A DNA stretch of 64,000 nucleotides from Roseibacillus sp. (GTDB lineage: Bacteria > Verrucomicrobiota > Verrucomicrobiia > Verrucomicrobiales > Akkermansiaceae), in assembly GCA_002686085.1 (NCBI GenBank), contig NZAC01000001.1, positions 1 to 64,000 on the forward strand. The letters are read 5' to 3'. Positions 4,923 to 44,565 of the stretch are shown here, one piece after another. The translations under genes were made by a program, and so were the position numbers. The notes under the pieces are model-generated. The model was not told where the DNA came from and made no database searches. It saw only the letters and a list, made by a program, of their open reading frames with translations. The stretch's first letter is position 1. Each line of letters opens with the position of its first letter.

Positions 4923-6395
4923 ATGAATATTCAAAAGAGTATGCAGTCGAAGCCCTCGGGCTCACCTCACTCAAGGGCTGCCACTTGGCCGGTCGCACTG
5001 GTTTTGATGATGACGCTTTGGCTATTTCCCTCGATTCTTGGAGCAAGTTCTCCCAATGTTGTTCTGATCTATATCGATGATCTGGGCTATGGAGATCTTG
5101 GCTCTTACGGGTGTCGAGATATCCCTACCCCTTATCTTGACAGGTTGGCGAAAGAGGGAGTTCGGTGCACGGCATCCTATATTACGAATCCACCCTGTTG
5201 TCCGAGTCGGTGCAGCATGCTGATGGGGCAGTATGGCCAGAAATTCGGGAAGTATGGCATGTCGAGAGGGCTTTCGCTTCCAGACGACCGTCCGACGCTT
5301 GCCCAGTTTCTCAGTGGCCAAGGCTATGTCACTGGGCATATTGGCAAATGGGATATAGGAAGTAGGGCTCAGGGGCCACTTCAGACCGGTTTCAGTAAGG
5401 CGGCCAGAACCCCTCCAAAAAAGAAGTATACCAAGAGGGAGTTGCTACGCCTGTCGCCATCCTTGCGCAGAAAGCTGGAGGAGAAGGAGGGGAAGTCAAA
5501 ATACTACTGCATCGATGAGGGTGGGAAAACGATGTGGCTCACTGATTACGATGGGGATGCGATGGTGGACTTCGTTCAGCAGCACAAAGACGAGCGTTTC
5601 TTTCTCTACTGGTCGCCGGAGGCGGTGCACTCCTTTAATACGGAAGTCCCCGACCGTCTGATGAATCGAGTGAAGTCCAAGGGGAGTCGCCGTTATCTCG
5701 CAGGGGCGATCGCTTCGGTGGATGATCAGATTGGCAAGCTTCTCAACGCTCTGGAGGGCAGTGGGCTCCGAGAGAAGACACTGATTATCTTTTCCAGTGA
5801 TAATGGTGCCAATAGCGGGGAGGGAGGTAGTTCAGCCCCCTACAGCGGTGGAAAAGGCAAGGGGACCCAGAAGGAGGGTTGGGTCCGGGTTCCTACGATT
5901 TTCTCCATGCCTGGTTCGCTGCCAGAGGGGGGTGTTCATAAAGGACTCATCGCGAACTTTGATTTCTACTCGACGATCGCTGGACTTTTGGGGAAGGCAG
6001 CTCCCCCGCATTGCGATGGGGTGAACTTGTTACCGTTTCTACGGGGCGAAAAGAAAGGAAGTGCGCACGAGTTTCTCTTTTGGCTGAACAACGAACCGGG
6101 GGATGCGGTAAGGCGGCATCTTGTTGCGGTGCGTTGGAAGCAGTGGCGTCTCTACCGAAAGTATCAAAAGGATCCCTGGCAGCTCTTTGATCTCACGACG
6201 GATCCCCTGGAAGAAAAGGATGTCTCTGGCAAAAATCCGGAAGTGGTAAGACAGCTTGCGGAGAGACACAGGGACTGGGTTAAGACTCTTGCTCCAATCC
6301 GCGAAGTATCGAAAGAGAATAGTCCAGCTCAGCGGGTGACCACCGGTCATGGATGGGAGGTGTCTCAAAAAGCGAGGGATTCAAGTGGCAGGTAA
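4923..6395 (+). CDS. Secreted type I sulfatase
   Basis: A 490-residue sulfatase. Hydrophobic segment around 23-40 (VALVLMMTLWLFPSILGA) is the signal peptide, preceded by a rather long hydrophilic N terminus. Asp-Asp at about 52-53 in LIYIDDLGYGD binds metal. C92-C-P-S-R96 is the formylglycine signature; the x position is also Cys, which is uncommon. SSDNGA continues the active-site region, and the C-terminal subdomain contains WQLFDLTTDPLEEKDV. Family role: sulfate ester hydrolysis on carbohydrate. It is the third sulfatase in 6.4 kb, 46 bp after the PhoD-like gene and followed after one base by the glycosidase-like gene, which suggests one transcription unit for a sulfated polysaccharide. 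Confidence 0.92.
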   Translation: MNIQKSMQSKPSGSPHSRAATWPVALVLMMTLWLFPSILGASSPNVVLIYIDDLGYGDLGSYGCRDIPTPYLDRLAKEGVRCTASYITNPPCCPSRCSMLMGQYGQKFGKYGMSRGLSLPDDRPTLAQFLSGQGYVTGHIGKWDIGSRAQGPLQTGFSKAARTPPKKKYTKRELLRLSPSLRRKLEEKEGKSKYYCIDEGGKTMWLTDYDGDAMVDFVQQHKDERFFLYWSPEAVHSFNTEVPDRLMNRVKSKGSRRYLAGAIASVDDQIGKLLNALEGSGLREKTLIIFSSDNGANSGEGGSSAPYSGGKGKGTQKEGWVRVPTIFSMPGSLPEGGVHKGLIANFDFYSTIAGLLGKAAPPHCDGVNLLPFLRGEKKGSAHEFLFWLNNEPGDAVRRHLVAVRWKQWRLYRKYQKDPWQLFDLTTDPLEEKDVSGKNPEVVRQLAERHRDWVKTLAPIREVSKENSPAQRVTTGHGWEVSQKARDSSGR

Positions 6396-6396
6396 G

Positions 6397-8706
6397 ATGT
6401 CCATGCCCCTATGGAAGTTCTCTTCGAGGCGTCTCGGAAATTGGGAGTCAGCTGACAGAGAAAAAGGCTGCGTAGGGCCGAGTGGCTCGCGAGGTTACGC
6501 TCCTGAGAAAAGGGATGCTGAGCGGAGTTGGGGCAGGTATGCCAAACGATACTTCTGGGGGATAATCCTGTTTCTGGTGATGCCGGGTGGTGTTGCATTG
6601 AGTGAAGAGCAGCCAGCCTTCGAGGATTACTGCGCCCGGCTTGAGCAGGAGATTCAGGGAAGAAAACATGGCTTCATGGCAGGGAATCTTTCCTATTACG
6701 TGGGCGGTTTTCATGCGAGCTGGGAACTGGTGGAGGATGAGACAATCGGGTTGACCCATCCGTTTCATCATGACCTGAGAAGCAGGGGTGTCGGCTTGCT
6801 GGAGAGTCAACTGGAAGGATCCGAACACACGGGGATTGGTAATGACTATCAAGGGTGGGAGTTTTATAAGGATACCCGGGTTCTTTACGGTAGCGTCCTC
6901 ATTAACGGTAAGCTTCATGTAAATCCGAAGCCGAGGAGCATGCGGTGGCGGCCGGACAGGTTGATTTGTGAGTATGAGGTGGGAGGAGTTCAAATCAGAG
7001 AAGTGAAGTTTATTGCCGGCAACGATGCGGCGGCTTCCGTGATCACTTCCTCAGAGCCAGTCACTCTTCGGTTCTCGGGGCATAGTTTCTATCATCGCAA
7101 CAGCGTATCTTCTTCCGCCACGGCCCGTGTCGATACGGCAAACAATTCCCTCATTATCCGGGAGGGTGGGATGGTGAGATCCCGTCCGGATCCCGGGGGT
7201 CCCGAAAGGACGGGTCCCATGGTCTACGAGGGCATGTCCACAGTCCTGAGCTCTTCGCGTGGACTTGGTAGCACAGTAGAACTCAATCAAGATAAGAGAG
7301 GGGTGCAGCACTACGAATTCTCGGTGCCCTGTGACCGAATGGGAACTGTGGTGGCGTGGGCCATGCATGATAAGGCTGAAGATGCTGTAAGAGCAGCGCG
7401 CACTGTCATTGCGGAGCATCCCTCTCTTCTTGCTGCCAAAACGGCGGAATGTAATCGCGAATTGAATGATGAAATCCCGTGGTTTCGTTGTTCAGACCGA
7501 CGATTTGTCGATGTCTATTACTATCTCTGGTCACTGTATTTAATGTATTACATCGAGGTCGGAAAAGGGTGGGAGAATGAGCCGCATACCCAGACTGCGG
7601 TAAACAATTTTCTTGGAATACACCGCTACGATGCAGCGTTCCAGATCAAGGTAGGTAGCTGGACGCAGACAAAGAGTAGATACGCCTACGGGAACGTCCT
7701 GACATGGAGGCATCTCACGGAAAGTGGCCGATATCGTGAGACCCCGGATGGCCATCGATTGCTCTCAGATAATAAGGGGATCTCCTGGCACAGTGGCGCA
7801 TATGGAGGAGAAACATCAGAGCACGTCCTGGGTGCCTGGCAGATCTATCAGCACACTGGTGATGTTGAGTTTCTAAAAAGGTGCTACGACGGGCACTTTG
7901 CCAAGTTGTTCTGGAAGAGGCTTTCGAGCATGGCGATGAATCAGTTTGAAGTCGCCGATGTTCTTGAAAAGATGGCTCGGTTGACAGGGCATGAGGAGGA
8001 TGTGGATCATTGGAGAAAGATGGTCCGGCGAGATCCTGAACACGTGCGGCGCATGTTTGAGGATCGCTGGGGGATGAATGGAGTTCCGTCCTTCTTTGCG
8101 GCTCCCCGTAACGGCATGCTGATGACTAATGGGTTCTGGGCCATGCGATCCCCTTATTTTCCACAGGCCTATGCGCAGCCCATGTTGAGAGAATGGGCCC
8201 TCGATAAGGAAAAGGGGTTTTTCGGGGAGTTCTTCCCTCTCGCGATGTCGCGGCAGTCGATGAGTAAGTTTGCTACCAAGGTAGATCACTCCTTTGGGTA
8301 TACTCCGGACACTGCGTATTTTACCCTTGATGGAATGTTTCAACAGGGCCTCGGGCAGGAAGCGGCCGCGTTGGCTCTGAACCATATCAAAAACTATAAC
8401 TACCATTCCGCGTGGAATATTCCGATCGCTCCAGAAGCCTATCGTCGCGATCTCAGTCTCTTTGGGGATCAGTTCTCCAATTTCAATGCGGGGAAGATTC
8501 TGCTGTATCTGGAAGGTTTGGCAGGGCTTGAGTATTCTGTTCCTGACAATCACATGACGATCACTCCTGTCCTGCCACGAGCCTGGGAGTGGATGGAGCT
8601 CTGTTTGCCGATCAAGGGCGCATGGACCCGGATCCGGTACGAGAGAGGTGGGGTAAAGGTAACGGGGTGCCCGGTGGATGTCGTCCTGAACGAGGACCAG
8701 AGTTAG
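6397..8706 (+). CDS. Exported large (alpha/alpha)6 glycoside-hydrolase-like protein
   Basis: About 769 residues. A hydrophobic stretch (GIILFLVMPGGVALS, about residues 53-67) is the likely export signal after an unusually long basic N terminus. A beta-rich N-terminal half (about 70-350) is followed by an alpha-helical half with Trp/Tyr-rich segments such as LYLMYYIEVGKGW, KGISWHSGAYGGETSEH, ATKVDHSFGYTPDT and NAGKILLYLEGLAGL. This two-part layout resembles (alpha/alpha)6-barrel glycosidases (GH63/GH37/GH65-like 'MGH1-like' folds) with an N-terminal beta-sandwich. I cannot assign a CAZy family. It begins one base after the sulfatase stop; the open frame also extends back to 6349 inside the sulfatase. 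Likely role: releasing monosaccharide from desulfated oligosaccharides. Confidence 0.65.
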   Translation: MSMPLWKFSSRRLGNWESADREKGCVGPSGSRGYAPEKRDAERSWGRYAKRYFWGIILFLVMPGGVALSEEQPAFEDYCARLEQEIQGRKHGFMAGNLSYYVGGFHASWELVEDETIGLTHPFHHDLRSRGVGLLESQLEGSEHTGIGNDYQGWEFYKDTRVLYGSVLINGKLHVNPKPRSMRWRPDRLICEYEVGGVQIREVKFIAGNDAAASVITSSEPVTLRFSGHSFYHRNSVSSSATARVDTANNSLIIREGGMVRSRPDPGGPERTGPMVYEGMSTVLSSSRGLGSTVELNQDKRGVQHYEFSVPCDRMGTVVAWAMHDKAEDAVRAARTVIAEHPSLLAAKTAECNRELNDEIPWFRCSDRRFVDVYYYLWSLYLMYYIEVGKGWENEPHTQTAVNNFLGIHRYDAAFQIKVGSWTQTKSRYAYGNVLTWRHLTESGRYRETPDGHRLLSDNKGISWHSGAYGGETSEHVLGAWQIYQHTGDVEFLKRCYDGHFAKLFWKRLSSMAMNQFEVADVLEKMARLTGHEEDVDHWRKMVRRDPEHVRRMFEDRWGMNGVPSFFAAPRNGMLMTNGFWAMRSPYFPQAYAQPMLREWALDKEKGFFGEFFPLAMSRQSMSKFATKVDHSFGYTPDTAYFTLDGMFQQGLGQEAAALALNHIKNYNYHSAWNIPIAPEAYRRDLSLFGDQFSNFNAGKILLYLEGLAGLEYSVPDNHMTITPVLPRAWEWMELCLPIKGAWTRIRYERGGVKVTGCPVDVVLNEDQS

Positions 8707-9827: not shown

Positions 9828-9905
9828 AGGTGGTGGAGGGAATAGTATGAACAGTTCTAGTTGCTTTTCAGCTTGCTGTCGCCATTCCTATTCCCAAAGA
9901 GCGCA

Positions 9906-10376
9906 ATGATTTTCTGGAAGAAAGCACTTCTCTGCATCCTTCTTGTCGAAGTGGTTGGGAATGCCAGTGGGCTAGTGACCTTTGGTTCAATCAAGGATTG
10001 GTATGACATGCTCGAGCGCCCTCCTGGAACGCCGCCGAATGGACTCTTTGGTCCCGTTTGGACCCTTCTTTTTGGCTTGATGGGCTTTGCTCTCGCCTTG
10101 GTGCTTTCCACGGAATTGGGAAAGGATCGGCAGATCGCGCTACGATGGTTTGTGATCCAGTTTCTTTTGAATCTCGCATGGACGCCGGTATTTTTTGGAT
10201 GGCATCGGATGGATGTGGCCCTCGCGGTCATAGGCCTGCTGGTAGTTGCCGTGGCCTTCACGGTCAGGCAATTTGGGAAGGTCCACCGATTCGCGGGATG
10301 GCTGCTGGTTCCGTATCTTCTCTGGGTGGGATATGCTTCTTACCTTAATGCAGGATTCCTGTTGTTAAATACCTAA
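9906..10376 (+). CDS. tspO: TspO/MBR-family membrane protein
   Basis: A 156-residue integral membrane protein with five hydrophobic segments and TspO/MBR hallmarks: RPPGTPPNGLFGPVWTLLF (family form W-x-P-P-x-x-x-F-x-x-V-W), a central LNLAWTPVFFG (family form N-x-x-W-x-x-x-F-F) and a C-terminal VPYLLWVGYASYLNAG (family form P-Y-x-x-W-x-x-x-A-x-x-L-N). TspO proteins bind porphyrins and other hydrophobic ligands; bacterial versions are linked to tetrapyrrole and stress signalling. ATG 9906 is preferred over an upstream in-frame codon at 9861 because it begins directly before the first membrane helix. It has no obvious functional link to its polysaccharide-degrading neighbours. Confidence 0.9.
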   Translation: MIFWKKALLCILLVEVVGNASGLVTFGSIKDWYDMLERPPGTPPNGLFGPVWTLLFGLMGFALALVLSTELGKDRQIALRWFVIQFLLNLAWTPVFFGWHRMDVALAVIGLLVVAVAFTVRQFGKVHRFAGWLLVPYLLWVGYASYLNAGFLLLNT

Positions 10377-10590: not shown

Positions 10591-11859
10591 ATGCGAAGTC
10601 CCTTGAATCGAAGAACATTCCTCCGCGGGAGTGGTGTAGCGATGGCTCTACCCATGCTTGAGGCAATGATTCCAACAGCGCGGGCAGCGCGCGCCGCCAC
10701 CGGTCCTGTGAAGCGGTTCGTATGCCTCTCCAATAATTATGGAGTCTACCAAAAGGGATTCTTTCCGGATGAGACTCAGGTTGGAGCCGAGTATGAGATG
10801 CCGGAGACCTTGAAGTCCTTGGAGAAACACCGGAAGGATTTTACCGTTTTTTCCAACCTCGATCACGGTTTTACCGGCGGGCATCAGGGGGTGCCGGTTC
10901 TTCTGAGTGGAGTGCGGCCGGTGCTTGCCCATAACTATGCTGAGGGCAACATTAGTCTCGATCAGAAGTTGGCAGAGTATCATGGCGCTGCGACTCGGTT
11001 CCCTTCGATGACTCTGGGAGTGAGGGAACGTAATCTTTTGAGTTTTACACGGACTGGGGTGCAAGTGCCTTCCATTGACATGAAGGCGGCCTATCGTGCG
11101 ATGTTCCTTGAAGATAGCGCAGAGAAAAAAGCCTCTTCGGGAGAGCGCTTTAAGCGGCACTCTAGCATTCTGGATGTGGTTGGAGAGCAGGCCAAGAGTT
11201 TGAACAGGCAGCTGGGAAAACAGGATCAGAGAAAGCTCGAGGAGTATTTCGACTCTGTGCGGACCATGGAAAAGAAAATCATCCAGCAGGAGCCCTGGCT
11301 TGAGAGGCCAAAACCGACGACAGATGTCAAGGAGCCCAATCCCGGGAACGGAACTGCGGAGCAATTGAAGGTCATGATCGAGATGATCGCGTTGGCTTTG
11401 CAGACGGATTCTACGAGGGCCATCACAATGGTGAGCGGGTTTGCCAACGGAGATTTTGGATTGAATGGAGGCTACCACGGGTTTTCCCACCACGGGGAAA
11501 GACCTGAGCCCGTTGCGGCTCTCAAAAAGATTGAGGGTTACCAGATTTCGATGATGTCATATCTGATTGATTTGCTGAAGGAGCAAGAAGACCCCATTAA
11601 TGGAGGTACTCTTTTCGACCACACAGCGGTTCTATTTGGATGCGGGATGGCCGCAGGCACGCATCAGACGAAGAATCTCCCGCTTGTCCTTGCAGGGGGT
11701 GGCTTCAAGCATGGAGAGCACAAGGTTTACCCGAAAGAGGAGATTCAACGGGTTCCCGCCGCAAATCTGCTTCTCTCTATTCTGCAGAATAGTGGGCTCG
11801 AAGTGGACCAGTTTGGCTCTAGTTCGGGGACGCTCCGCGGGCTTGAGTGGAAGGCGTAA
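10591..11859 (+). CDS. DUF1552 protein, TAT-exported, first copy
   Basis: A 422-residue DUF1552 protein. The N terminus has a twin-arginine signal (NRRTFLRGSG, then the hydrophobic VAMALPMLEAMIP and an A-R-A cleavage-like site). Conserved segments include FVCLSNNYGVY near the start, DHGFTGGHQG, SLDQKLAEYHG, TRAITMVSGFANGDFG, a HGFSHHG histidine cluster and VLFGCGMAAGTHQTKNLPLVLAGGG. No biochemical function is established for the family. It is almost always found beside DUF1592/1588-type cytochrome-like proteins in PVC bacteria, as here, where one starts 40 bp downstream. The C-terminal half resembles the alkaline-phosphatase/sulfatase-like fold of DUF1501 proteins, but I see no clear metal site. 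The start is ATG 10591 with a weak AAGTAAGG Shine-Dalgarno just upstream. Confidence 0.88.
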   Translation: MRSPLNRRTFLRGSGVAMALPMLEAMIPTARAARAATGPVKRFVCLSNNYGVYQKGFFPDETQVGAEYEMPETLKSLEKHRKDFTVFSNLDHGFTGGHQGVPVLLSGVRPVLAHNYAEGNISLDQKLAEYHGAATRFPSMTLGVRERNLLSFTRTGVQVPSIDMKAAYRAMFLEDSAEKKASSGERFKRHSSILDVVGEQAKSLNRQLGKQDQRKLEEYFDSVRTMEKKIIQQEPWLERPKPTTDVKEPNPGNGTAEQLKVMIEMIALALQTDSTRAITMVSGFANGDFGLNGGYHGFSHHGERPEPVAALKKIEGYQISMMSYLIDLLKEQEDPINGGTLFDHTAVLFGCGMAAGTHQTKNLPLVLAGGGFKHGEHKVYPKEEIQRVPAANLLLSILQNSGLEVDQFGSSSGTLRGLEWKA

Positions 11860-11899
11860 TTATCAGTTAAGAGGCTTCCGCTCCCAGCAAACCTATCCG

Positions 11900-14800
11900 A
11901 TGCTCGTACGGCTGTTTGCCATCGTAATTGTCTCGCTGAGCTTTTCTCCCGGGCTGGTGGCTGAGAATAGTCTTGGTGCAATTCGCCCGTTTTTGAAAGA
12001 ATACTGCATCGATTGTCATGGGGCGGAAAAGCAGAAGGGGGATTATCGCTTCGATACCCTGAAAACCGATCTTTCGGATATTGAGACTCTGGAGACCTGG
12101 CAGAATATTCTCGATCAGCTCAATCTTGGGGAAATGCCGCCCCGTAAGAGCCTCCAGCCGTCAAAAGAGGAATGGTCTCCGGTCGTTCATCAGCTCACGG
12201 AAGAACTTTCTTCGTTTTATGCGAAGATGCGCAGCACAGGTGGGCGCACCGTCATCCGGCGTCTGAATCGCCATGAGCTACGAAATACTTTGCGAGATCT
12301 CCTCTATCTCGATGGGCCGCAATACAGGCCCGATGCAGCGGGATCCCGTCTCGTTGATAACAATGGGAATGGGAGCGTAGAGCGAACGGGCAATGATCCC
12401 CTGAGATTTTTCCCGGAGGATGAGCAGGAGGATGGCTTCTTTAACCTCGGAGATCATCTGGTGATGTCGGACTTTCTCCTGAAGCTGACGCTAGGCGCGG
12501 TGGAGGAGACTTTGGAGCAGGCGACCAAGCTCGGAACGCGGCCCGAGGCGAAGGCTCATCAGTTCACAGGGCATTTGATTAAAGGTAAGGGGCGCAATCT
12601 GATTGAGGCAGTTTCTCGGGAATTAGAGGATAGCTACGAAATGATGGCGGTGGGATATGAGCGTTTCGGTAGAGTAGCGCCCACTGATTTACGCGGTGGT
12701 GTGGGTCTCTCGGGGAGATACCGGATCACACTGGAAGTATCGGGACATAATCCCCGGCACCCATGGGAAGAGACCGTGAAGGTTGATGCGAAAGATCCGT
12801 TTCAACTGTGCTTGAACATTGCGGATACAAAAAATGGAGGGCTTGCGGGACCAACTTCCACACCCGAGGCATTGTGGTCGGTTCCTTCCGATGGTAGTAA
12901 AAAGGTGTTCAGCCATGAGGTCTGGATGGATAAGACTTGGACGCCCTGGCTGGGGTGGGAGAATGGTCCCACCGAAAAAGTTGTCCGACCGGAAAAGATC
13001 GTGGAGGATTATCTTCCGGCGAAGTTCTTTAAACGACCCGACAAAAAAGCCGATAAAGAGGGACATGACGATTGGGGGATGAATATGGCGCGCCTCCTTT
13101 TCGAGGGAGGGTATCGTGGGCCTCATCTCAGGATTCATAGCCTTAAGGTGGAGCCCGTTGTGGGAGCGTGGCCTCCCCGGAGCCATACGGCTCTTTATGG
13201 TTCGTCCTCAGGAGAAGAAGAGGAAATCCGAAATCTTCTTCTGTCCTTCGCAGAGAGGTGTTTCCGACGCCCGGTGCAGGCTGATGAGATAGAGCCTTAC
13301 GTGCAGCTGGTGCTTAAGCAACAGGCTGGTCCGGTGGTGAAGGTTGCGGGTGGCATCAAGAATCTTCGTTACCGGGTCTATGAGGGGAAATGGGACAAGC
13401 TTCCGGATTTTGATGCCCTCAAGCCGGTTTCTAATGGTGCGTTACCAAAGGGCTTCATCGATATAGGGGCCTCGGGAAGAAAGGAGTATTTTGGTATGGT
13501 ATTCGAAGGGCTGATTGAGGCCCCCAGGGCGGGTGAGTATCTCTTCGAAATGGCGTCGGATGATGGAGCCAGACTGCTCGTTGAGGGGCAAGAGGTCATC
13601 TTGCATGACGGCTTGCACGGCCCTGAATTGAAGAAGGGTAAGATAGAACTCGGCGAGGGGGAGCATGTGATCCGGGTCGAATATTTCGCTTATGGGGGAA
13701 ACAACAGTTTCCGGGCTGGATGGAGTGGAGCGAATTCAACTCACGTTAAGCTCTCAAAAGATCCCTTGCACAATGTGGCTCAGCCCAAAAAGTCAAAAGA
13801 GGCGGTGCCGCCCTATATAAGGGCCATGCAGGATGGATACGCTGCGCTCATGTGCTCTCCTCAGTTTCTCTACCTTAAGGAGGATTCTGGGGCGCTTAAT
13901 GATTACGCCCTTGCTTCGCGTCTAAGCTATTTTCTCTGGTCCTCAATGCCGGATCAGATTCTCATGGACTTGGCGGCGAAGGGGAAACTCCGGAATCCTA
14001 CTGAGCTTGATCGTCAGGTGGAGCGAATGCTTCGGGACCCGAGGGCGGCAGCCTTCGTCAGGCATTTTCCGTCAGCGTGGCTGCGGATGGATAAGCTTGG
14101 TAAGATGCCTCCTTCAGGTGGAGATTATCAGTTTTACAAGAATCTCAGGGTGGAACCTTTGCTCATGAAGCAGGTGACTGCCTACTTTGAAGATATTCTT
14201 GAGAGAAATGGACGTATTGAGGAGTTCATCGACGGGGACTATACCTTCATGAATCAGACGCTGGCGAAATGGATCTACCGCCGGGAGGGGATTCGGGGGG
14301 AGCGCCTACGCAAGGTGAAGTTGGAGGATCCCCGGCGTGGTGGAATCTTTACTCAGCCGGGGGTCATGACCGCAACCGCCAATGGGGTGGAGACCTCACC
14401 GGTTATCCGAGGAGTCTGGATTCTTGACAACGTGCTTGGGACTCCCCCTTCTCCGGCCCCACCGGATGTCGAGCCGCTTCCCACCGACACTCGCGAGGCT
14501 ACCACCATACGAGAGTTGCTGGATCTGCACCGAGCGAATGAAGCGTGCGATAGCTGTCACCGCAAAATTGACCCTATGGGGTTCGCTTTTGAAAACTTCG
14601 ATGTGGTGGGGCGTTGGCGGGACCGCTACAGGGGGGCAAACGGTCCAATTGATACGGTGACGACTCTTTCAAGTGGGAGAGAGATCAAAGACATCGTGGA
14701 GTTCAAGAGCATGTTGATGGAAAGGAAGGAGCTTATTACGAGAAACCTCGCGAAGAAGATGCTTACCTATGCTACGGGGAGGAAGCTTGAAGCTGTAGAC

Positions 14801-14905
14801 CGTGGTGAGCTCGACCGGATTACTGCGGAATTGGAGAAAAGGGACAATCGTCTCCGTGAACTAGTCCGACTGGTTGTGAGGAGCCAAATCTTTCTGAAGA
14901 ATTAA
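11900..14905 (+). CDS. Secreted DUF1587/1592/1588/1585 protein, c-type cytochrome-like, with PA14-like insert
   Basis: 1001 residues from ATG 11900, which gives the signal peptide MLVRLFAIVIVSLSFSPGLVA; the frame runs on from 11600 inside the upstream gene. C36-I-D-C39-H40 (planctomycete-type cytochrome c domain) comes first, followed by the DUF1587 block (RLNRHELRNTLRDLL). About residues 490-625 contain a PA14-like module (FEMASDDGARLLVEGQEVI, then DGLHGPE), a fold often involved in carbohydrate binding. DUF1595/1592 follows (YALASRLSYFLWSSMPD), then DUF1588 with a second heme-type motif C883-D-S-C886-H887 and DPMGFAFENFD, and finally DUF1585 (LAKKMLTYATGR). Family function is unknown; a secreted redox role on polymers is inferred from CxxCH motifs and carbohydrate-binding modules. 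Its partner is the DUF1552 protein upstream. Confidence 0.9.
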   Translation: MLVRLFAIVIVSLSFSPGLVAENSLGAIRPFLKEYCIDCHGAEKQKGDYRFDTLKTDLSDIETLETWQNILDQLNLGEMPPRKSLQPSKEEWSPVVHQLTEELSSFYAKMRSTGGRTVIRRLNRHELRNTLRDLLYLDGPQYRPDAAGSRLVDNNGNGSVERTGNDPLRFFPEDEQEDGFFNLGDHLVMSDFLLKLTLGAVEETLEQATKLGTRPEAKAHQFTGHLIKGKGRNLIEAVSRELEDSYEMMAVGYERFGRVAPTDLRGGVGLSGRYRITLEVSGHNPRHPWEETVKVDAKDPFQLCLNIADTKNGGLAGPTSTPEALWSVPSDGSKKVFSHEVWMDKTWTPWLGWENGPTEKVVRPEKIVEDYLPAKFFKRPDKKADKEGHDDWGMNMARLLFEGGYRGPHLRIHSLKVEPVVGAWPPRSHTALYGSSSGEEEEIRNLLLSFAERCFRRPVQADEIEPYVQLVLKQQAGPVVKVAGGIKNLRYRVYEGKWDKLPDFDALKPVSNGALPKGFIDIGASGRKEYFGMVFEGLIEAPRAGEYLFEMASDDGARLLVEGQEVILHDGLHGPELKKGKIELGEGEHVIRVEYFAYGGNNSFRAGWSGANSTHVKLSKDPLHNVAQPKKSKEAVPPYIRAMQDGYAALMCSPQFLYLKEDSGALNDYALASRLSYFLWSSMPDQILMDLAAKGKLRNPTELDRQVERMLRDPRAAAFVRHFPSAWLRMDKLGKMPPSGGDYQFYKNLRVEPLLMKQVTAYFEDILERNGRIEEFIDGDYTFMNQTLAKWIYRREGIRGERLRKVKLEDPRRGGIFTQPGVMTATANGVETSPVIRGVWILDNVLGTPPSPAPPDVEPLPTDTREATTIRELLDLHRANEACDSCHRKIDPMGFAFENFDVVGRWRDRYRGANGPIDTVTTLSSGREIKDIVEFKSMLMERKELITRNLAKKMLTYATGRKLEAVDRGELDRITAELEKRDNRLRELVRLVVRSQIFLKN

Positions 14906-15937: not shown

Positions 15938-16564
15938 TTACAGTCCCTTGGCGTTTTCTGAAAGGTAGTCGGCGAGTTTTGAGGGGTCAGCGGGTGTGAA
16001 GGCTGCCTTGTCCTTGTTCCATCCAGCGGGACATACTTGGCCATTTTCCTCAAAAAACTGGAGCCCCTCAATAGTGCGAATCACCTCGTCCAGGTTCCGT
16101 CCAAGGGGTTCATCGTTGACGGTCATGCTCCGGATGATTCCTTTCTGGTCGATGATGAAAGTGGCGCGCATGGCAACTCCTGCAGGGTAGTAAGACTCCC
16201 CCCCGTCACTTTCAATGCCATAGGATTGGCAGATGGCGTGGCTGAGATCTGCTGCGAGAGTGTAGTCTACTTGGCCGATGCCACCGCTATCGACATCTGT
16301 ATTTCTCCATGCGTTATGAGTCCAGTGGGAGTCGATCGATACTCCAACAACTTCTACCCCTAAGTCACGAAATGTGTCTATTCGGTTATTCAGGCTGATC
16401 AATTCGGTTGGACATACAAAGGTGAAATCCATCGGGTAAAAGAAGAGAACAGCGTACTTTCCGGCAATCGCGGAACTGAAATTATAATCTTCGACCACTT
16501 CACCATTTCCCATGACTGCTTGGGTGGTAAAGTCCGGGGCTGTTTTTCCTACGAGTGTAGTCAT
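15938..16564 (-). CDS. Typical 2-Cys peroxiredoxin (AhpC/TSA family)
   Basis: 208 residues on the minus strand. The peroxidatic Cys is C51 in DFTFVCPTE and the resolving Cys is C178 in GQVCPAGW, as in typical 2-Cys peroxiredoxins of the AhpC/Prx1 group. The intermediate motif DSHWTHNAWRNT and the YPAGVAMRATFIID strand are also family-typical. Role: cytoplasmic reduction of hydrogen peroxide and alkyl hydroperoxides using thioredoxin or AhpF-like donors. The frame extends upstream to 16690, but residues before MTTLVGKTAPDF do not match the family, so I place the start at 16564. No AhpF or OxyR gene is adjacent. It is divergent from purC across 242 bp. Confidence 0.93.
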   Translation of the reverse strand: MTTLVGKTAPDFTTQAVMGNGEVVEDYNFSSAIAGKYAVLFFYPMDFTFVCPTELISLNNRIDTFRDLGVEVVGVSIDSHWTHNAWRNTDVDSGGIGQVDYTLAADLSHAICQSYGIESDGGESYYPAGVAMRATFIIDQKGIIRSMTVNDEPLGRNLDEVIRTIEGLQFFEENGQVCPAGWNKDKAAFTPADPSKLADYLSENAKGL

Positions 16565-16806
16565 TGGTAGAATTCGTTCTGTTGCTCTTTGTGAAGTTAG
16601 CTGCTGATGGGCTAGGGCACGGGAGGATCCGTGTCCGGTGGAGAAAGTAGCACTTCCTGCGGGTATGGCAATGTTAGCAACTGTGAACAAGTGGGAGAAA
16701 TTGGATGGCCGATATGGGGGCTGGCCCGCTCATTTTCTCTCGGGCGAACTTTCCGCTCCCCTCGCGGGCATCCAGAATGTAGCAGTTTAGCAACTGGATT
16801 AAATCT
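16565..16806. other. Divergent intergenic region between peroxiredoxin gene and purC, with a stable hairpin
   Basis: This 242-bp region must hold promoters for both genes. I see a hairpin at 16615-16636 with arms GGGCACGG and CCGTGTCC around a 6-nt loop (one G-U pair), and a GGCC/GGCC repeat near 16707. There is no convincing sigma-70 pair, no match to a purine riboswitch core and no small ORF. Whether the hairpin is an operator or RNA structure is unknown. Confidence 0.35.
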
Positions 16807-23680: not shown

Positions 23681-26600
23681 ATGAAGAAGGCCAAGGTCCG
23701 GTTTGACGTGGGTTTGATCAAAGGGAATTCATGGCGGCACGGAATTTTTGCTCTTTGGTGCCTTTGTGCCATGCAACTTCCTGCTCGTTCGGCGCCGATC
23801 GCAGAGGGGGAATTGCGGGGCGTTACGCTCGACCCGGTCCAGTTAAAGGTAGGGGCGACCAAGCTCCTGGAGACCTACTGCGTGTCCTGCCATGGTCCCA
23901 AGAAGCAGAAAGGCAAGATACGGTTTGATGTGCTGGAATCCATCGATGCGGTCGATCGCCAGGCCCTATTGGCTCAAGTTCAAGACGTGGTTCATCTCAA
24001 AGAGATGCCGCCCGATGAGGCAAATCAGCCAACTACGCATGAGCGGGAATTGCTGCTGCTTTGGGTTAATAGCCAGCTCACGGGCAAAGCCGCGAAGGCC
24101 TTGGAGGAGAAGTTACAGCGCTTTGAATATGGTAACGTGGTGCCTCACGAGCAGCTCTTCTCCGGGGATTACGCGAACCTGCCCGGGTCTACGTCAGACC
24201 GTCGTTGGCTGATCAGCGAATTCATCTTTAACGAAAAGATCAATCGCCTACTGGACTACCGTCCAGCTCGGACAATTTATGGAAGTCCCCAGCAGGTACA
24301 CGGAGATAGTGGCGTCCACTGGAGTCCGAAGACGGAGCGTGGTAGCAAGTCTCGCCGTGCGATCACGAACCCTTATCTTCTCCCAGAGAAGGTGGGGGTT
24401 CGCTACAGCGCGCACAAGAGGCTCACTACCGGGCACCTGTTGACGATGATCGGGAACGCTAAGCGTGTGGCGGCCCATATGTCGTCCGAGGTCACAATGA
24501 AGGCGCGGTATCCCGCCACCTATGCGCTGATGGAGGGTGAGTTAGAGCATCGTGAAATACTGCGCAGGCGTGAGGAATTTCTGAGAACGTATCCCTTCAT
24601 GGAGCAGTTGCTTCAAGAGATGTATGGAGAGCGGCATGAGAAGCTTCTGCCCAAATTCGTCCGAAAGAAGATTTCTTATCCCGGTCCGCCGAAGCATTCG
24701 AACAACCGAATTCAAAAACGCCACCAAAACCTCGAGTTTTTGGAGCGATTTGATAAGGATGACATCCGAGCTATTCTGGAGGGGATCACGACTTACAGCC
24801 GTAATTCTTTTGAGGTTCAAGAACTGAAAGATCGATCAGAAACGGACAACCGCGGCAATCTGGTCTGGGCTCCTTATAGCGAGGCCAATCGTGCCGAGTA
24901 TGATGAGATTATCCGGCAATGCGAAAGAGATTGGTGGAGAGAAGGGGTGAGTGACTACCGTATCGAGAATCGCATCACGACTATGAAGCTGTTCTACGAT
25001 ACGTGGGACATGAAGCGACTCTATCTACATGTCAAGAATGGCAACTTTGGGCGCCCGAAATATATTCCACTGAATGATGCCGAGATGGCTGTGCTCACCG
25101 ACAAGATCAGGCAGCATCGCAATAAGGGTGATCGCTACAGCGAGATTATCGATAAGTGCCTCGCCGACTGGGATCGGTCCTTCAAAGCGAAGCGTGAGGT
25201 GGAGGGTGATCGGGGTGAGGCGTTGGTGGACGGAATGATCGCGGAGCTTTTTGAGGCGATTTTGGAGCGCCTGCCGACGCAGCGAGAGTGTGTTGAAAAC
25301 GCTGAACAGTTTAATCTCTATGCCGAGAAAATCGGCCGGCAAAAGGCCATTGGGAAGCTTATCGAGTCTCTGGTCCTGAGCTCCGAGTTTGCCTATCGAG
25401 ACGAATTTGGGCAGGGTGTTGAAGATGCTGATGGGCGGCGGATGATGTCGCCTAGGAGTGCTAGTTATGCGTTGGCTTACGCGCTGACTGATGCGAGTCC
25501 TGATGACCAGCTGAAACAGGCAGTAGAGGCAGGGCGGTTGACGACACGGAAGGACTATGAGCGTGAGGTCCGGCGAATGCTGGGCCGCCGCGATCAGTGG
25601 TGTGTTATCGACGAAAACGTCCAAGCAGCAAATCTCAATGCAAGCGTCACAAACCAGCCAATCCGCAAGCTGCGCTTCTTCCGTGAGTTTTTTGGGTATC
25701 CGAAGGCTCAAGATGTCTTCAAGGATGACTCGCGTTTTGGCGCAGGACGTCACGAGCAGGCGGTCAGCCGTCTCATTGACGAGGCAGACATGCTGGTCGA
25801 GCACATCCTTGAACGCGACGAACAGGTTTTTGAGCAACTACTCACGACCGACCGCTTTTTCATTTATCATTCCGGAGATAACAAAGCGATGAAGGCAGGT
25901 TCGGAACAGCTGAACAAGGTCTATGAGTATTTTGGGAACCTCGACTGGCAGGACTGGCAGCCGGAGGACATCGCCCCTCACCGGGAGTTTCTGCTCACAA
26001 TCTGGGAATTTCAGAAGACGCGTGGTGGCGAGAACAAGGCTTTGTTGACCACGCTCAAAAGGATGATGCCGGCCTTGGAGCTTCATTTCGGTCAGGGTCA
26101 AGCGAGCGGAATGCCCTATATGAAAATGTCGATGGGGTTCTGGCACGGTGGCAATGTGCTTGGTCGCACCGGCCAGCAGATGCGTGGCGAACAGGTTACC
26201 TCCTACTGGAATATCGACTGGAAGACCTGGGACTACCCGTCTTCTCAGCCTGCCTTCGTTCCTAACCGGAAAGGGATTCTTACTCATCCAGCATGGCTTA
26301 TTGCGCACGCACAGAATCTCGAGACAGATCCGATCCACCGTGGCAAGTGGGTCCGCGAAAAACTGCTGGCTGGGACGATTCCCGATGTGCCGATTACCGT
26401 GGATGCAGTGATACCTCCGGATCATCATAAGACGCTCCGCCAGCGGATGGAGATTAGGACCGGCGACTCCTACTGCTGGCGATGTCATCAGAAGATGGAC
26501 CCACTAGGCTTCGCGTTTGAGAATTTCGACGATTTTGGCAGGTTTCGGACCGAAGAACGTCTCGAGCACCCGGATAATCTCCTGCGAGAAGCCAAGCGTG

Positions 26601-26941
26601 GTGAGACTAACGAGTTCGGAGCCTCGCTCCCGGTATACAAGACCCTGCCGGTTGATGCTGGAGGTGTATTGGAGGGCACGGGGGATCCCACTCTTGATGG
26701 GGATGTTGAAAACGCCTTCGATCTCGTTGAGCGTCTCGCGAGGTCAGACCGGGTCCGCCAGTCAATCATTCGGTATGCCTTTCGCTTTTTTCTCGGTCGG
26801 AATGAAACGCTTTCGGATTCCAAAACGTTGATGGATGCGGATAAGGCATATCTTGAAAATGGGGGGAGTTTTGATGAAGTGATTGTGTCTCTTCTGACCT
26901 CGGACTCCTTCGTGTTACGCAAATCAAGCCCTACAGAATAA
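23681..26941 (+). CDS. Secreted DUF1592/1588/1585 protein, c-type cytochrome-like, second copy
   Basis: 1086 residues. Signal-peptide-like stretch at about 20-38 (HGIFALWCLCAMQLPARSAP), so initiation may be at 23681 or slightly downstream. First heme-type motif C67-V-S-C70-H71 in the segment ETYCVSCHGPKKQKGKIRFD. The middle is a long charged helical region (about 280-520) without the PA14-like insert of the first copy. Then come ALAYALTDASPDDQL (DUF1592-type), a second motif C932-W-R-C935-H936 with KMDPLGFAFENFDDFG (DUF1588), and DUF1585 near the end (RYAFRFFLGRNETL). Function unknown. It is only weakly similar to the first copy outside the conserved blocks, so this is divergence rather than recent duplication. 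It is followed after 3 bp by its DUF1552 partner. Confidence 0.88.
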   Translation: MKKAKVRFDVGLIKGNSWRHGIFALWCLCAMQLPARSAPIAEGELRGVTLDPVQLKVGATKLLETYCVSCHGPKKQKGKIRFDVLESIDAVDRQALLAQVQDVVHLKEMPPDEANQPTTHERELLLLWVNSQLTGKAAKALEEKLQRFEYGNVVPHEQLFSGDYANLPGSTSDRRWLISEFIFNEKINRLLDYRPARTIYGSPQQVHGDSGVHWSPKTERGSKSRRAITNPYLLPEKVGVRYSAHKRLTTGHLLTMIGNAKRVAAHMSSEVTMKARYPATYALMEGELEHREILRRREEFLRTYPFMEQLLQEMYGERHEKLLPKFVRKKISYPGPPKHSNNRIQKRHQNLEFLERFDKDDIRAILEGITTYSRNSFEVQELKDRSETDNRGNLVWAPYSEANRAEYDEIIRQCERDWWREGVSDYRIENRITTMKLFYDTWDMKRLYLHVKNGNFGRPKYIPLNDAEMAVLTDKIRQHRNKGDRYSEIIDKCLADWDRSFKAKREVEGDRGEALVDGMIAELFEAILERLPTQRECVENAEQFNLYAEKIGRQKAIGKLIESLVLSSEFAYRDEFGQGVEDADGRRMMSPRSASYALAYALTDASPDDQLKQAVEAGRLTTRKDYEREVRRMLGRRDQWCVIDENVQAANLNASVTNQPIRKLRFFREFFGYPKAQDVFKDDSRFGAGRHEQAVSRLIDEADMLVEHILERDEQVFEQLLTTDRFFIYHSGDNKAMKAGSEQLNKVYEYFGNLDWQDWQPEDIAPHREFLLTIWEFQKTRGGENKALLTTLKRMMPALELHFGQGQASGMPYMKMSMGFWHGGNVLGRTGQQMRGEQVTSYWNIDWKTWDYPSSQPAFVPNRKGILTHPAWLIAHAQNLETDPIHRGKWVREKLLAGTIPDVPITVDAVIPPDHHKTLRQRMEIRTGDSYCWRCHQKMDPLGFAFENFDDFGRFRTEERLEHPDNLLREAKRGETNEFGASLPVYKTLPVDAGGVLEGTGDPTLDGDVENAFDLVERLARSDRVRQSIIRYAFRFFLGRNETLSDSKTLMDADKAYLENGGSFDEVIVSLLTSDSFVLRKSSPTE

Positions 26942-26944
26942 GCA

Positions 26945-28342
26945 ATGTATCTCAGTCGAAGAGAACTCCTGAAGAAAACGGCCCTGGGGACCGCCAGTCT
27001 GGCGCTTAGTCCATCATTCAGCCACCTTTTGGGTGCTCCGGTGAATGGGAGAAGTCAAACTCCGCACCGATTTGTGTTTATTCGAAAGTCCAACGGTAAT
27101 TTGCCTACCCAGTTCGGGCTTCCGTCCTTCTCTCAGCAAGAGTTAAAAAAACACGAGGAGAAGGAAGCCTTCGAGGTGGATCTGGACCGACATGAGTTGC
27201 CTGACTGGTTGAAAGGGTTGGACTCCTACAAGGAGAGCATGACCATTCTGCATGGCATCTCCATGTCGGTCAGTGGGGGAGGACATTACTCTTATTCGGG
27301 CTGCATGGGGGCATACAAAGCTGGTCGGGATATTCTCAGTAATATTAAGTGGGCAACGGTAGACTTCGAGTTAGCCCGCCTCTTTCCTTCTCCTTTCGGT
27401 CATGTCGAGATGTCGTTGGCCGTGCCGCACGGCCGGGACCACCGGACCGGGATCGTTTCGGGGTATTCCGCCCCGGCCGCTAAGCAGCGCAATTACTGCT
27501 ACGCCGATCCCATGACTGCCTATCAGGAATTATTCAAGTCTGTGATTAATACTGATGAGGCGGGTTCCGACAATGCACTACTCGACTACCTGCACGACAA
27601 GGAACAGCGCCGGTTAAAAGGTCTTGATGGAGACGAGCGCCTTAAAATCAGCGACCAGATAGATTCTCTTCAGTCGATCCGCGACCGGAATTCCCAGGTT
27701 GGCTCTCTGAGCGAAAAGATCAGGCAATATTTGCCTAAGATTAAGCCCATTCATGCGGACGGTGGTGCCGATGCAACTCTGCCGCAGAAACAGGCAGCCT
27801 TTACCGATGTCATTGTTGGAGCGCTAGCCTCGGGGTTGACGAACGTGGTGACCTATACCATCGATGACCTAGGGACAGATATAACCTCGCTCCCGGAGAA
27901 TGAGCAGAAGACGAGTATCCACCAAATCGGGCATGGAGGGCAGATTTCCGGGGCTGCGAGAATGAGAGACGCGATCAAAACACATCATATGAAGCAGGTG
28001 GCCACCCTTGTGAGTCGGCTTAAAGCCATTCCGGAGGGGAAGGGGACGATGTTCGATAACACGACGATTATCTATATGCCCGAGACCGGGGCTGGACATC
28101 ATGGCCCGGATACCGAGGCCCCAATGGTTCTTTTGACGGGAAGTAACTCCAAGCTTGATCTTGCAGGTCGCTACGTTCGGCTGCCGTTCCATGGAACGGA
28201 GGGGCACAAGACACTGAGTAACTGGTATACGACGCTGCTCAATGCCTATGGCAATCCAATTCAGCACTATGGAGATCTCGACCTGACCATGCAACGTAAT
28301 CGCCTGGAGCAACGCGGGGCGATCAATCGATTCCTAACTTAA
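26945..28342 (+). CDS. DUF1552 protein, TAT-exported, second copy
   Basis: 465 residues. Twin-arginine-like N terminus SRRELLKKTALGTASLALSP. DUF1552 features: RFVFIRKSNGNLPTQFG, MTILHGISMSVSGGGHYSYS, SLAVPHGRDHRTGIVSGYS, DGGADATLPQKQAAFTDVIV, HQIGHGGQISG (histidine cluster at the position of HGFSHHG in the other copy), and TTIIYMPETGAGHHGPDTE with VLLTGSNSKLDL near the end. It starts 3 bp after the DUF1592-type gene, so the pair is certainly co-transcribed; the gene order is the reverse of the pair at 10.6-14.9 kb. Enzymatic function unknown; acts outside the cytoplasmic membrane by its signal. Confidence 0.87.
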   Translation: MYLSRRELLKKTALGTASLALSPSFSHLLGAPVNGRSQTPHRFVFIRKSNGNLPTQFGLPSFSQQELKKHEEKEAFEVDLDRHELPDWLKGLDSYKESMTILHGISMSVSGGGHYSYSGCMGAYKAGRDILSNIKWATVDFELARLFPSPFGHVEMSLAVPHGRDHRTGIVSGYSAPAAKQRNYCYADPMTAYQELFKSVINTDEAGSDNALLDYLHDKEQRRLKGLDGDERLKISDQIDSLQSIRDRNSQVGSLSEKIRQYLPKIKPIHADGGADATLPQKQAAFTDVIVGALASGLTNVVTYTIDDLGTDITSLPENEQKTSIHQIGHGGQISGAARMRDAIKTHHMKQVATLVSRLKAIPEGKGTMFDNTTIIYMPETGAGHHGPDTEAPMVLLTGSNSKLDLAGRYVRLPFHGTEGHKTLSNWYTTLLNAYGNPIQHYGDLDLTMQRNRLEQRGAINRFLT

Positions 28343-33004: not shown

Positions 33005-34342
33005 ATGTTGAATATCTTCGGAAGCGCGCAAAGCGGATTCTGTGACCGGCAGTCACGGCGAAACTTTATCAAGGTGGGGGCGCTTGGTATGGGCGGTTTA
33101 AGCCTTCCGCAGCTGCTGCAAGCCGAGAGGGAAGCAAAGAACGGTCGCTCTCACAAGGCGGTCATCATGATCTACCTGCCGGGGGGGCCGCCTCACCAGG
33201 ACATGTATGATCTGAAGGTCGATGCCCCATCCAATATCCGCGGGGAATTTAGCCCCATATCGACGAATGTGCCAGGAATCCGGATCTGTGAGCACTTGCC
33301 CCGGATGGCGGCGATGGCAGACAAACTTGTCTTCGTGAACTCGCTTGTGGGTTCTATCGGGCAGCATGCGTCTTTTCAGTGCACCACCGGACGGAGTAGC
33401 AATAATCAGCCTGCAGGGGGCTGGCCTGAGCTTGGGACAGTGATTTCGCGTCTGCAGGGCGGAAAGAAACAAACCGTGCCAAATTACGTCAATCTCTCTC
33501 CAAAGATGAAGCATACGCCCTACAATTTTGGAAAGAACAGCTTCGTGGGAGTCGGGCACCGGGCGTTCATGCCATCAGGCGAAACTAAGTCGGATATGAC
33601 ACTCCAGGGCATCACGATGGAGCGTTTGGAGGATCGGCGTGCCTTACTTCGGAGTTTTGACGGGTTGCGTCGTAATCTCGATGCGAGTGGGATGATGGAG
33701 GGGTTGGACGCCTTCCAGGAGGAAGCGTTTGATCTTCTCACTTCCAGTCGCCTGCTTGAAGCCCTCGATCTTAGCAAGGAAGATCCTAAGGTTCGGGAGC
33801 GCTACGGAAAGGGAACAACTAAGGTGCAGGGGGATGCCGCTCCGCGCATGAATGAACAGTTTCTTGTCGCCCGGCGCCTCGTAGAAGCGGGTGCTCGAGT
33901 AGTGACGGTGAGTTACAGCTTCTGGGATTGGCACGGGAGTAATTTTTCAAGAGCCAAGGATAATTTCCCGGATTTTGATAGGGCCCTCACTGCGCTGGTT
34001 GACGATCTGCATGACCGTGGAATGGATGAGGATACAACCGTGATTGCCTGGGGTGAATTCGGACGGACCCCGACTATCAATGAGAAGGCGGGCCGGGACC
34101 ATTGGCCGCGGGTGGCTAACGCTCTGCTGGCATGTGGCGGAATGCGAACGGGACAAGTGATTGGTACGACAGATCGTCTGGGGGGAGAGGCCGATGAGCG
34201 GCCTGTGCACTTTCAGGAGATGTTTGCAACCCTGTATCACAACATGGGGATCGATATTAACAAGGCCACCCTGCCTGATTTGAGTGGTCGGCCCCAGTTT
34301 CTCGTGGATACGGAGCACCAGCCGCTTCCGGAGGTGATCTGA
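33005..34342 (+). CDS. DUF1501 protein, TAT-exported
   Basis: 445 residues. Twin-arginine motif SRRNFIKVGALGMGG at about residues 17-31. DUF1501 features: HKAVIMIYLPGGPPHQDMYD (family form L-x-G-G-P-S/P-H-x-D-x-D/Y), APSNIRGEFSPISTNVPGI, ICEHLPRMA, VVTVSYSFWDWHGSNF, TTVIAWGEFGRTPTINEKAGRD and DHWPRVANALLACGGM. These belong to the alkaline-phosphatase/sulfatase-like superfamily, but the family's activity is unestablished. DUF1501 genes are usually paired with DUF1549/DUF1553 cytochrome-like genes; here the gene is solitary, next to ssrA and an acyltransferase gene. Start ATG 33005 gives a normal TAT signal. Confidence 0.9.
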   Translation: MLNIFGSAQSGFCDRQSRRNFIKVGALGMGGLSLPQLLQAEREAKNGRSHKAVIMIYLPGGPPHQDMYDLKVDAPSNIRGEFSPISTNVPGIRICEHLPRMAAMADKLVFVNSLVGSIGQHASFQCTTGRSSNNQPAGGWPELGTVISRLQGGKKQTVPNYVNLSPKMKHTPYNFGKNSFVGVGHRAFMPSGETKSDMTLQGITMERLEDRRALLRSFDGLRRNLDASGMMEGLDAFQEEAFDLLTSSRLLEALDLSKEDPKVRERYGKGTTKVQGDAAPRMNEQFLVARRLVEAGARVVTVSYSFWDWHGSNFSRAKDNFPDFDRALTALVDDLHDRGMDEDTTVIAWGEFGRTPTINEKAGRDHWPRVANALLACGGMRTGQVIGTTDRLGGEADERPVHFQEMFATLYHNMGIDINKATLPDLSGRPQFLVDTEHQPLPEVI

Positions 34343-41070: not shown

Positions 41071-41087
41071 AGGACGCAGCTTTGCTT

Positions 41088-42554: not shown

Positions 42555-42689
42555 GGCTTTAGCGAGGGTTGAGGATCTGGGCTTCTTTGAGCTTCAGCAG
42601 ATAAAACACACCGGCCAAGGGACAGGGTCAGGATACGTTTTCGAAGCGGAAGAGAAGTTAAGTGGGTCAACACCTTAGCAGGGACCCCA

Positions 42690-43448
42690 TCAGGCTTTCA
42701 ACACTTCAATCTGCTGATTGGTAAGAGCGGCGATGAATCCCGGATCACTGTCCTCATTGGTTATGACAGTAGTAAGCTCGGAGATTTCAGCGAAGAAGAA
42801 AGACGACTTGAGTCCAATCTTGGTGGAGTCCGCAAGGCAGAAGACATTCTCCGAACATTCGATCACTCGTTCCTTGAAGGATGCCTGCCGGGAGTTGGTC
42901 TCAGAGATTCCCCGCTCTAGGTGAATTCCATTACAGGAGAAGAACATCTTGTGGATATTGTGCTTACGCATAGTGGACTCTGCTGGCAGGCCTATGTAAG
43001 AGCGGGATCGTGGCTCGTAGATTCCTCCGGTGCAGACGATATCGATTCCCTCTCGATCTGCGAGGGCAGTAATTACATTATGAGCATTGGTTAGGACGGT
43101 CAGGTGGAATCCCGGGAGATGTTCAACAAGGGTGAGAGCAGTTGAAGACGCATCGATAAAGATCGTATCATTAGGTTCGATCTGCTTTGCTGCAAGACGG
43201 GCGATGGCGGTCTTTGCGTCTCGATTCACTTGCTTACGCTCGTTGAGAGCAAGCTCCACCCGGCTTTGATTTGGGCGAACCGCTCCTCCGTGGATACGGA
43301 GGAGCTCACCCCTTTGCTCTAAGCTTTCGAGGTCTTTCCGCACTGTTTCGTCTGTGACCTCGAGTGTCGTCGCAAGATCTGTGGTCCTCACGGACTCTTC
43401 CTCCGAGAGCTTGGCGATAATAAACGATTGGCGTTCAATGGGTAGCAT
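42690..43448 (-). CDS. DeoR-family transcriptional regulator of the BMC locus
   Basis: 252 residues. N-terminal winged-helix DeoR domain: RQSFIIAKLSEEESVRTTDL, VTDETVRKDLESLEQRGELL and RIHGGAV, the classical family signature. The C-terminal sugar-phosphate sensing domain (DeoRC) has IFIDASSTALTLVEHL, LTVLTNAHNVITAL, CTGGIYEPRSRSYIG and LADSTKIG. Family members bind an operator near their own genes and respond to a phosphorylated sugar intermediate. It is divergent from the microcompartment operon with a 112-bp shared region containing phased direct repeats and a palindrome. The expected inducer is rhamnulose-1-P or fuculose-1-P, inferred from the neighbours. Confidence 0.9.
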   Translation of the reverse strand: MLPIERQSFIIAKLSEEESVRTTDLATTLEVTDETVRKDLESLEQRGELLRIHGGAVRPNQSRVELALNERKQVNRDAKTAIARLAAKQIEPNDTIFIDASSTALTLVEHLPGFHLTVLTNAHNVITALADREGIDIVCTGGIYEPRSRSYIGLPAESTMRKHNIHKMFFSCNGIHLERGISETNSRQASFKERVIECSENVFCLADSTKIGLKSSFFFAEISELTTVITNEDSDPGFIAALTNQQIEVLKA

Positions 43449-43470
43449 CAGAATAGGGGGTTGAACAGGG

Positions 43471-43542: not shown

Positions 43543-43560
43543 CGTGTCGATTTCTGGAAA

Positions 43561-44235: not shown

Positions 44236-44274
44236 CTCGCGAAACGATGAACCAAACAACCAAAGGATAAGAAT

Positions 44275-44547: not shown

Positions 44548-44565
44548 CCAAAAACCTCTGAAATC

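Follow-up and report, generated by a model that had tools for sequence, protein, structure and literature searches.

Gene pairs formed by a PSCyt3/DUF1592 protein and a conserved neighbour have already been described in freshwater Verrucomicrobia as a kind of unassigned function (He et al. 2017, PMC5615132), in agreement with the initial annotation of the locus analysed here, which had likewise assigned none. The present locus adds another member to this known kind. As in the system of He et al., PSCyt3 is found in the same domain combinations, PA14 is one of the CBMs, and a conserved neighbour family and sulfatases are close by, but the main text of that study gives neither name nor fold of the neighbour family (PMC5615132). 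The same authors predicted PSCyt proteins to reside in the periplasm or the cytoplasm (PMC5615132). The fold of DUF1552, its kinship with DUF1501 and the loss of its hydrolase residues are additions of the present analysis.

The second system for comparison is Cbp2D of Cellvibrio japonicus. This protein is composed of CBM2, X158, FN3, X183, DUF1587 and X132. Its X183 domain is a cytochrome and X132 bears a CxxCH motif (PMC8981238); the isolated X183 domain reduces lytic polysaccharide monooxygenases (LPMOs) in vitro (PMC8981238). A single deletion of Cbp2D delayed growth on insoluble cellulose, and growth was abolished when the deletion was added to a quadruple mutant (PMC12542752). A Cellvibrio homologue in a wheat-straw secretome is called a DUF1592-domain protein (PMC6004670). 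For DUF1552, the gene RB9955 of Rhodopirellula baltica is listed among stress-responsive genes and tagged 'regulatory mechanism' (PMC2754498).

The window, i.e., the whole stretch of 64,000 nucleotides of Roseibacillus DNA analysed here, belongs to a 96%-complete genome of 3.95 Mb; the genomes nearly related to it were assembled from marine metagenomes (Roseibacillus/Akkermansiaceae). Open reading frames and Pfam searches located both genes of the pair on the plus strand where the initial annotation had placed them. The DUF1552/HXXSHH protein (PF07586) of 422 aa is encoded at 10591..11859, and matches its profile at E 3.1e-68 (231 bits for a cut-off of 30) over positions 1-305 of 307. After a gap of 40 bases follows the gene for the DUF1592-type diheme protein (11900..14905; 1001 aa; AlphaFold2 pLDDT 83.8, pTM 0.76). 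The mechanical reading frame of this gene begins at 11600; the inferred start at 11900 was adopted because it provides a Sec-type signal peptide and because alignments of close relatives begin at that residue. NCBIfam profiles gave a name for neither protein. Export of DUF1552 by the TAT pathway, as initially proposed, is supported by the signal region NRRTFLRG (10591..10695, plus strand), in which R7 and R8 are conserved at 1.00 and 0.96 among 27 distant paralogues, but the Pfam TAT_signal match (E 4.3e-4, score 20.5) stays under its cut-off of 22.7.

Along the diheme protein, the Pfam order was PSCyt1, DUF1587, DUF1595, PA14, DUF1592, DUF1588/PSCyt3 and DUF1585, every one above its cut-off and all on the plus strand. 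Heme site 1 (C36-x-x-C39-H40; 12005..12019) lies in PSCyt1, and is followed by M79 within GEMPP (12134..12136), PSD3/DUF1587 (12395..12526; 9.4e-11), PSD5/DUF1595 (13229..13327; 2.3e-12), the PA14 insert (13331..13807), PSD4/DUF1592 (13895..14272; 2.6e-37), PSCyt3/DUF1588 (14336..14626; 5.5e-33), the profile of the genome search, and PSD2/DUF1585 (14672..14893; 1.1e-20). Heme site 2 (C883-x-x-C886-H887) is at 14546..14560. The residue numbers given earlier for the two CxxCH motifs thus hold with the start at 11900. When the mature protein was shuffled 20,000 times, two CxxCH motifs never occurred together, and C36, H40, M79, C883, C886 and H887 were unchanged in 55 of 55 relatives, C39 in 54 with one ambiguous X. 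The two motifs point to a diheme protein, in which heme loading is predicted from sequence. Genes for c-type cytochrome assembly were found in the host genome, and all 18 of its PSCyt3 partners carry exactly two CxxCH motifs.

By profile comparison with PDB, PSCyt1 matched class I cytochromes c at E 1e-3, and X183 structures were not recognisable among these matches. The N-terminal domain thus resembles class I cytochromes c, and M79 is, by analogy, the likely second axial (sixth) ligand of heme 1. The profile of the DUF1592 core gave only chance-level matches in PDB, and Foldseek with the model of the whole protein returned mostly PA14 domains as top matches and none for the heme modules. The PA14-like domain that had been noted initially is well supported: Pfam detects it at residues 525-610 (2.8e-10; 40.6 bits, cut-off 24) within an insert of about residues 478-636, PDB entry 6qdi matches at 1.7e-8, and Foldseek aligns it with solved sugar-binding PA14 domains (prob 1.00). 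As judged from the predicted fold, this is a carbohydrate-binding-type domain. Its presence is all-or-none: the insert is found in 36 of the aligned proteins (157-160 aa, in one case 247), and 19 have a linker of 6-7 residues.

We then examined how strictly the two families go together. Within 115 sampled genomes of Verrucomicrobiota, both were detected in the same seven, and the numbers of DUF1552 and PSCyt3 genes were equal in each (18/18, 10/10, 1/1, 1/1, 1/1, 5/5 and 7/7). Judged from gene positions, a DUF1552 gene adjoins 39 of the 43 PSCyt3 genes; the exceptions are three of the ten pairs in one genome (G066), and a single pair in an assembly of about 370 contigs (G086). The profile search of the host genome gave 19 good DUF1552 and 18 PSCyt3 genes. 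The partnerless 19th DUF1552 begins 292 bases from a contig end, and one extra weak match is really a DUF1501 gene. Among related loci, a DUF1592-type gene was present within 4.5 kb, in either order, for all of the 101 testable DUF1552 genes; seven others, on contigs with the neighbour region absent or cut off, stand outside this count, and two of the 101 (L067 and L074), for which nearest-neighbour pairing was ambiguous, were excluded from trees. The order of the two genes varies, both orders occurring among paralogues. One such case is the second DUF1592 and DUF1552 pair of the window (23681-28342), which has the reverse order, two CxxCH motifs and no PA14; its DUF1552 is very diverged (17% identical in the alignment).

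The trees of the two partners mirror each other. For the 18 paralogous pairs of one genome, the distances correlated at r=0.89, a value reached by none of 5000 permutations. Since these paralogues are all from one genome, species history cannot explain the mirrored trees. Equal counts, adjacency and co-divergence altogether indicate that the pairing of DUF1552 with the DUF1592 protein is nearly strict, and the partner noted in the initial annotation looks obligate. One DUF1552 per cytochrome, diverging together and bearing its own TAT signal, might also be expected of a dedicated helper for export or maturation of the cytochrome that is no subunit of an enzyme. An assembly factor, however, should serve many paralogues, while here each of the 18 pairs has its own, and the invariant His/Asp set described below hints at a chemical site; we regard such a helper as improbable.

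As to the nature of DUF1552, an AlphaFold2 model (pLDDT 83.2, pTM 0.85) was compared with PDB by Foldseek. Sulfatases and YejM were recovered with prob 1.00 and E 2.1e-6, at a TM score of about 0.4, indicating a predicted fold of the alkaline-phosphatase/sulfatase superfamily. A direct sequence link between DUF1552 and sulfatases was tried and rejected, as hhalign gave 2%; for this reason the kinship rests on the fold and on DUF1501. The profiles of DUF1552 and DUF1501 aligned at 97.8% (E 7.7e-13), and DUF1501 aligned with sulfatases at 92% around the metal-binding strand. Thus, by profile comparison, DUF1552 and DUF1501, which accompanies the sister PSCyt2 cytochromes, are homologous. Model and profiles combined, DUF1552 appears to be a remodelled alkaline-phosphatase-superfamily protein, more than the exported partner noted earlier.

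Overall fold is what DUF1552 has in common with the superfamily members, S1 sulfatases and YejM/PbgA, but the nucleophile and metal-ligand residues are missing from it and a His/Asp set is present instead. The nucleophile motif [CS]-x-[PA]-x-R was detected in just two of 61 DUF1552 sequences and in none of the 23 from DUF1501, but 17 of 22 sulfatases have it. The metal-ligand acids are exchanged as well, the DD after the first strand for N48/N49 and the DN of the SDNG motif for G352/M353, so that the S1 sulfatase signature (nucleophile motif plus Asp/Asn metal ligands) was not found in DUF1552 sequences. On the plus strand, H98 (10882..10884), D124 (10960..10962) and both H296 and H300 of the HxxSHH motif (11476..11493; H296-G-F-S-H300-H301 in the window protein) are invariant in 27 of 27 distant paralogues, and D343 and H358 (11662..11664; 23 of 27) are nearly so. 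The set is retained in Proteobacteria, too: in five plasmid homologues H98, D124, H296 and H358 were found in all and H300 in four, one Planctomyces copy being without it. Counted to the TG motif, the His spacing is 9 in DUF1552 and 10 in most DUF1501, and that of the sulfatase nucleophile is 10; from this spacing H98 is placed at, or one residue beside, the nucleophile position. H358 falls in the same hhalign column as the invariant H366 of DUF1501. These conserved residues, H296 and H300 as putative metal ligands among them, may form a metal or substrate site.

The fold of DUF1552 and its sulfatase-rich neighbourhoods could be taken for signs of an active sulfatase or phosphatase, with a cytochrome next to it that is unrelated or has a regulatory role. 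The near absence of the nucleophile motif, the exchange of the acids after strand 1 and in SDNG, and the fact that DUF1552 is nearly always paired with the cytochrome and diverges together with it all speak against a hydrolase, and we consider it quite improbable.

The DUF1501 and PSCyt2/PSD1 pairs resemble the present pair in combining an exported DUF1552 homologue with a partner cytochrome family, and they are multiplied in the host genome (about 52 DUF1501 and 45 PSCyt2 genes). They differ in that DUF1501 retains Asp residues after the first strand and has Glu at the position of the sulfatase Asp metal ligand, and in that the partner cytochrome belongs to a PSCyt family other than that of the diheme protein. 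In the window, a DUF1501 gene, homologous to DUF1552, is located at 33005-34342, and none of the window genes that were scanned is evident as its PSCyt2 partner.

The domain order of the diheme protein was then compared with that of Cbp2D, for which published annotation was the basis. By that annotation, a small cytochrome c domain, DUF1587 and a C-terminal region with one CxxCH follow each other in both, whereas Cbp2D has CBM2 and YceI-like domains where the window protein has PA14, and its reported partner is Cbp2E. The literature passages describe no DUF1552 partner of Cbp2D. The same order of cytochrome c, DUF1587 and CxxCH-bearing region is present in a fusion protein of Pseudoalteromonas. 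Judged by published annotation and by this Pseudoalteromonas protein, the DUF1592 core looks like the Cbp2D modules.

In analogy to Cbp2D, the diheme protein might serve as an electron donor to LPMOs, an idea favoured by the activity reported for the X183 domain alone (PMC8981238) and by the general domain order of the Pseudoalteromonas protein, which by annotation is that of Cbp2D. The X183 domains of T. turnerae, however, failed to drive an LPMO (PMC10916295), and a profile search for the LPMO_10 family detected no such gene in the 96%-complete host genome despite its 18 diheme partners. This result for LPMO_10 weakens the donor role, which we hold to be highly improbable.

Variants of the pair define what is conserved. 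In Sphingobium, proteins of 536-565 residues contain the C-terminal CxxCH alone and are accompanied by DUF1552, so heme site 2 is the heme of the minimal form. In three closely related Sphingobium clusters, genes for cytochrome c' and b561 come after the pair, and a fourth Sphingobium pair is without these two. In Sphingobium sp. TomTYG65, an unannotated reading frame for cytochrome c' was observed at 11460-12000 of locus L122, between DUF1552 and cytochrome b561; the main text of the tomatine transcriptome paper mentions neither cytochromes nor DUFs. The Pseudoalteromonas fusion of 2157 residues carries three CBM26, a glucose/sorbosone dehydrogenase domain, a cytochrome c and the whole core from DUF1587 to DUF1585, and DUF1552 is encoded 16 bases downstream. 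The fusion gene is on a plasmid (L117, 3670-10143), where it is annotated 'starch-binding protein', and the product also contains PKD and four CxxCH motifs. PA14 and the N-terminal heme are dispensable, because relatives exist without them; from the Sphingobium and Pseudoalteromonas forms, the C-terminal heme module and DUF1552 are the conserved unit, and the rest is exchangeable. Both forms suggest a redox enzyme, the former by the cytochrome c' and b561 genes that follow the pair, the latter by the CBM26 and the sugar dehydrogenase domain joined to its core.

The gene context in Sphingobium suggests substrates other than polysaccharides. Copies there adjoin genes for cytochrome c', cytochrome b561 and acyl-CoA dehydrogenase, and also stand beside those for a TonB receptor, an AraC regulator, SDR and Rieske proteins. 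The pair might thus be a redox enzyme on small molecules, with PA14 only anchoring it to envelope or exopolymer of the cell itself. The absence of PA14 from many paralogues and relatives and the location predicted by He et al. (PMC5615132) fit with this, but the CBM26 fusion and a sulfatase density near the pair about three times the own-genome mean do not, and we consider it rather unlikely. For a role in envelope stress or redox sensing, apart from nutrition, the response of RB9955 (PMC2754498) may be cited; the fusion with CBM26 and a sugar dehydrogenase domain, the association with sulfatases and the 18 paralogues, which point to many substrates, make it very improbable.

The association with sulfatases was estimated in two ways. 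In the host genome, 9 of the 19 pairs have a sulfatase no farther than 5 kb away, where at most 18.6% would be expected (P=0.004, uncorrected for clustering). Around 80 related loci, sulfatase density was 0.083 per kb, about threefold the host-genome mean of 0.028, a value that is suggestive only because the loci are related and not independent. The association is thus real though moderate. Some relatives in the same family lack the pair although they carry 14-18 sulfatases, and one genome combines a pair with three sulfatases, indicating that the pair is not tied to the use of sulfated glycans. A link to 3-keto-disaccharide hydrolases (PF06439), prompted by the second pair and by a Planctomyces plasmid, was rejected, as one of 19 pairs in the host genome lies within 5 kb of such a gene (P=0.84); a minority of relatives do have PF06439 genes next to the pair. 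Redox attack on, or electron transfer from, polysaccharide had been proposed initially. The diheme redox protein, its partner, the carbohydrate-binding-type fold and the moderate sulfatase association are in its favour, but a role on polysaccharide only is at odds with the Sphingobium context and with sulfatase-rich relatives that have no pair.

The exact gene neighbourhood of the pair is kept only in close Roseibacillus relatives. The neighbouring sulfatases and esterase of the initial annotation were confirmed, but its glycosidase, a 785-residue protein at 6349-8706, gave a sub-threshold match to the GH65 C-terminal domain alone, and no relative was found in PDB. Immediately 5' of DUF1552 is a TspO/MBR-family gene (9861-10376), kept only among close Roseibacillus relatives, and past the esterase a 1-Cys peroxiredoxin-type gene is on the minus strand (15938-16690). 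Upstream of the second pair are a gene of the 3-keto-disaccharide-hydrolase family and one for a GFO/IDH/MocA oxidoreductase. Farther along, a bacterial microcompartment locus (39931-49895) includes three BMC-domain and three EutN/CcmL genes, with phosphate propanoyltransferase, acetate kinase, aldehyde dehydrogenase and class II aldolase, and beside it are an FGGY kinase, an FMN-dependent dehydrogenase and a DeoR regulator. This locus looks like the fucose/rhamnose type of Planctomycetes and Verrucomicrobia.

We propose, at about even chances, that the two genes encode subunits of one exported redox enzyme that feeds the respiratory chain and is targeted by PA14 to glycans. DUF1552 would be exported via TAT with its alkaline-phosphatase/sulfatase fold kept, and H98, D124, H296, H300 and H358 would replace the hydrolytic acids and nucleophile as a new metal or substrate site. 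In a physical complex, it may dock on its partner's C-terminal heme module (DUF1592-DUF1588-DUF1585). Electrons from the substrate, possibly a carbohydrate, would travel through heme 2 and the class I cytochrome c domain at the N-terminus (H40/M79), and from there through periplasmic carriers to the respiratory chain. In the present subfamily, the PA14 insert would direct the enzyme, probably to glycans.

In a wider and more tentative extension, DUF1552 and DUF1501 might both be redox enzymes derived from the sulfatase/alkaline-phosphatase fold, in which an invariant His/Asp metal site replaces the hydrolytic site and works with a dedicated multiheme partner. If true, this would be a large unrecognised class of exported oxidoreductases, with about 63 PSCyt2/PSCyt3 partners in the host genome. 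The most useful additions made here are the remodelled sulfatase fold that the two partner families have in common, the minimal unit found in different phyla, the fusion in Pseudoalteromonas and the lack of LPMO_10. If glycans are the substrate, the pair would provide an oxidative route for algal polysaccharide breakdown, alongside hydrolases, sulfatases and LPMOs. Genes for PSCyt-type cytochromes and for their partners, all of unknown function, have multiplied strongly in Planctomycetota and Verrucomicrobiota; with a remodelled alkaline-phosphatase fold predicted for both partner families and a Cbp2D-like PSCyt3 core, this catalogue of DUFs becomes one testable redox hypothesis.
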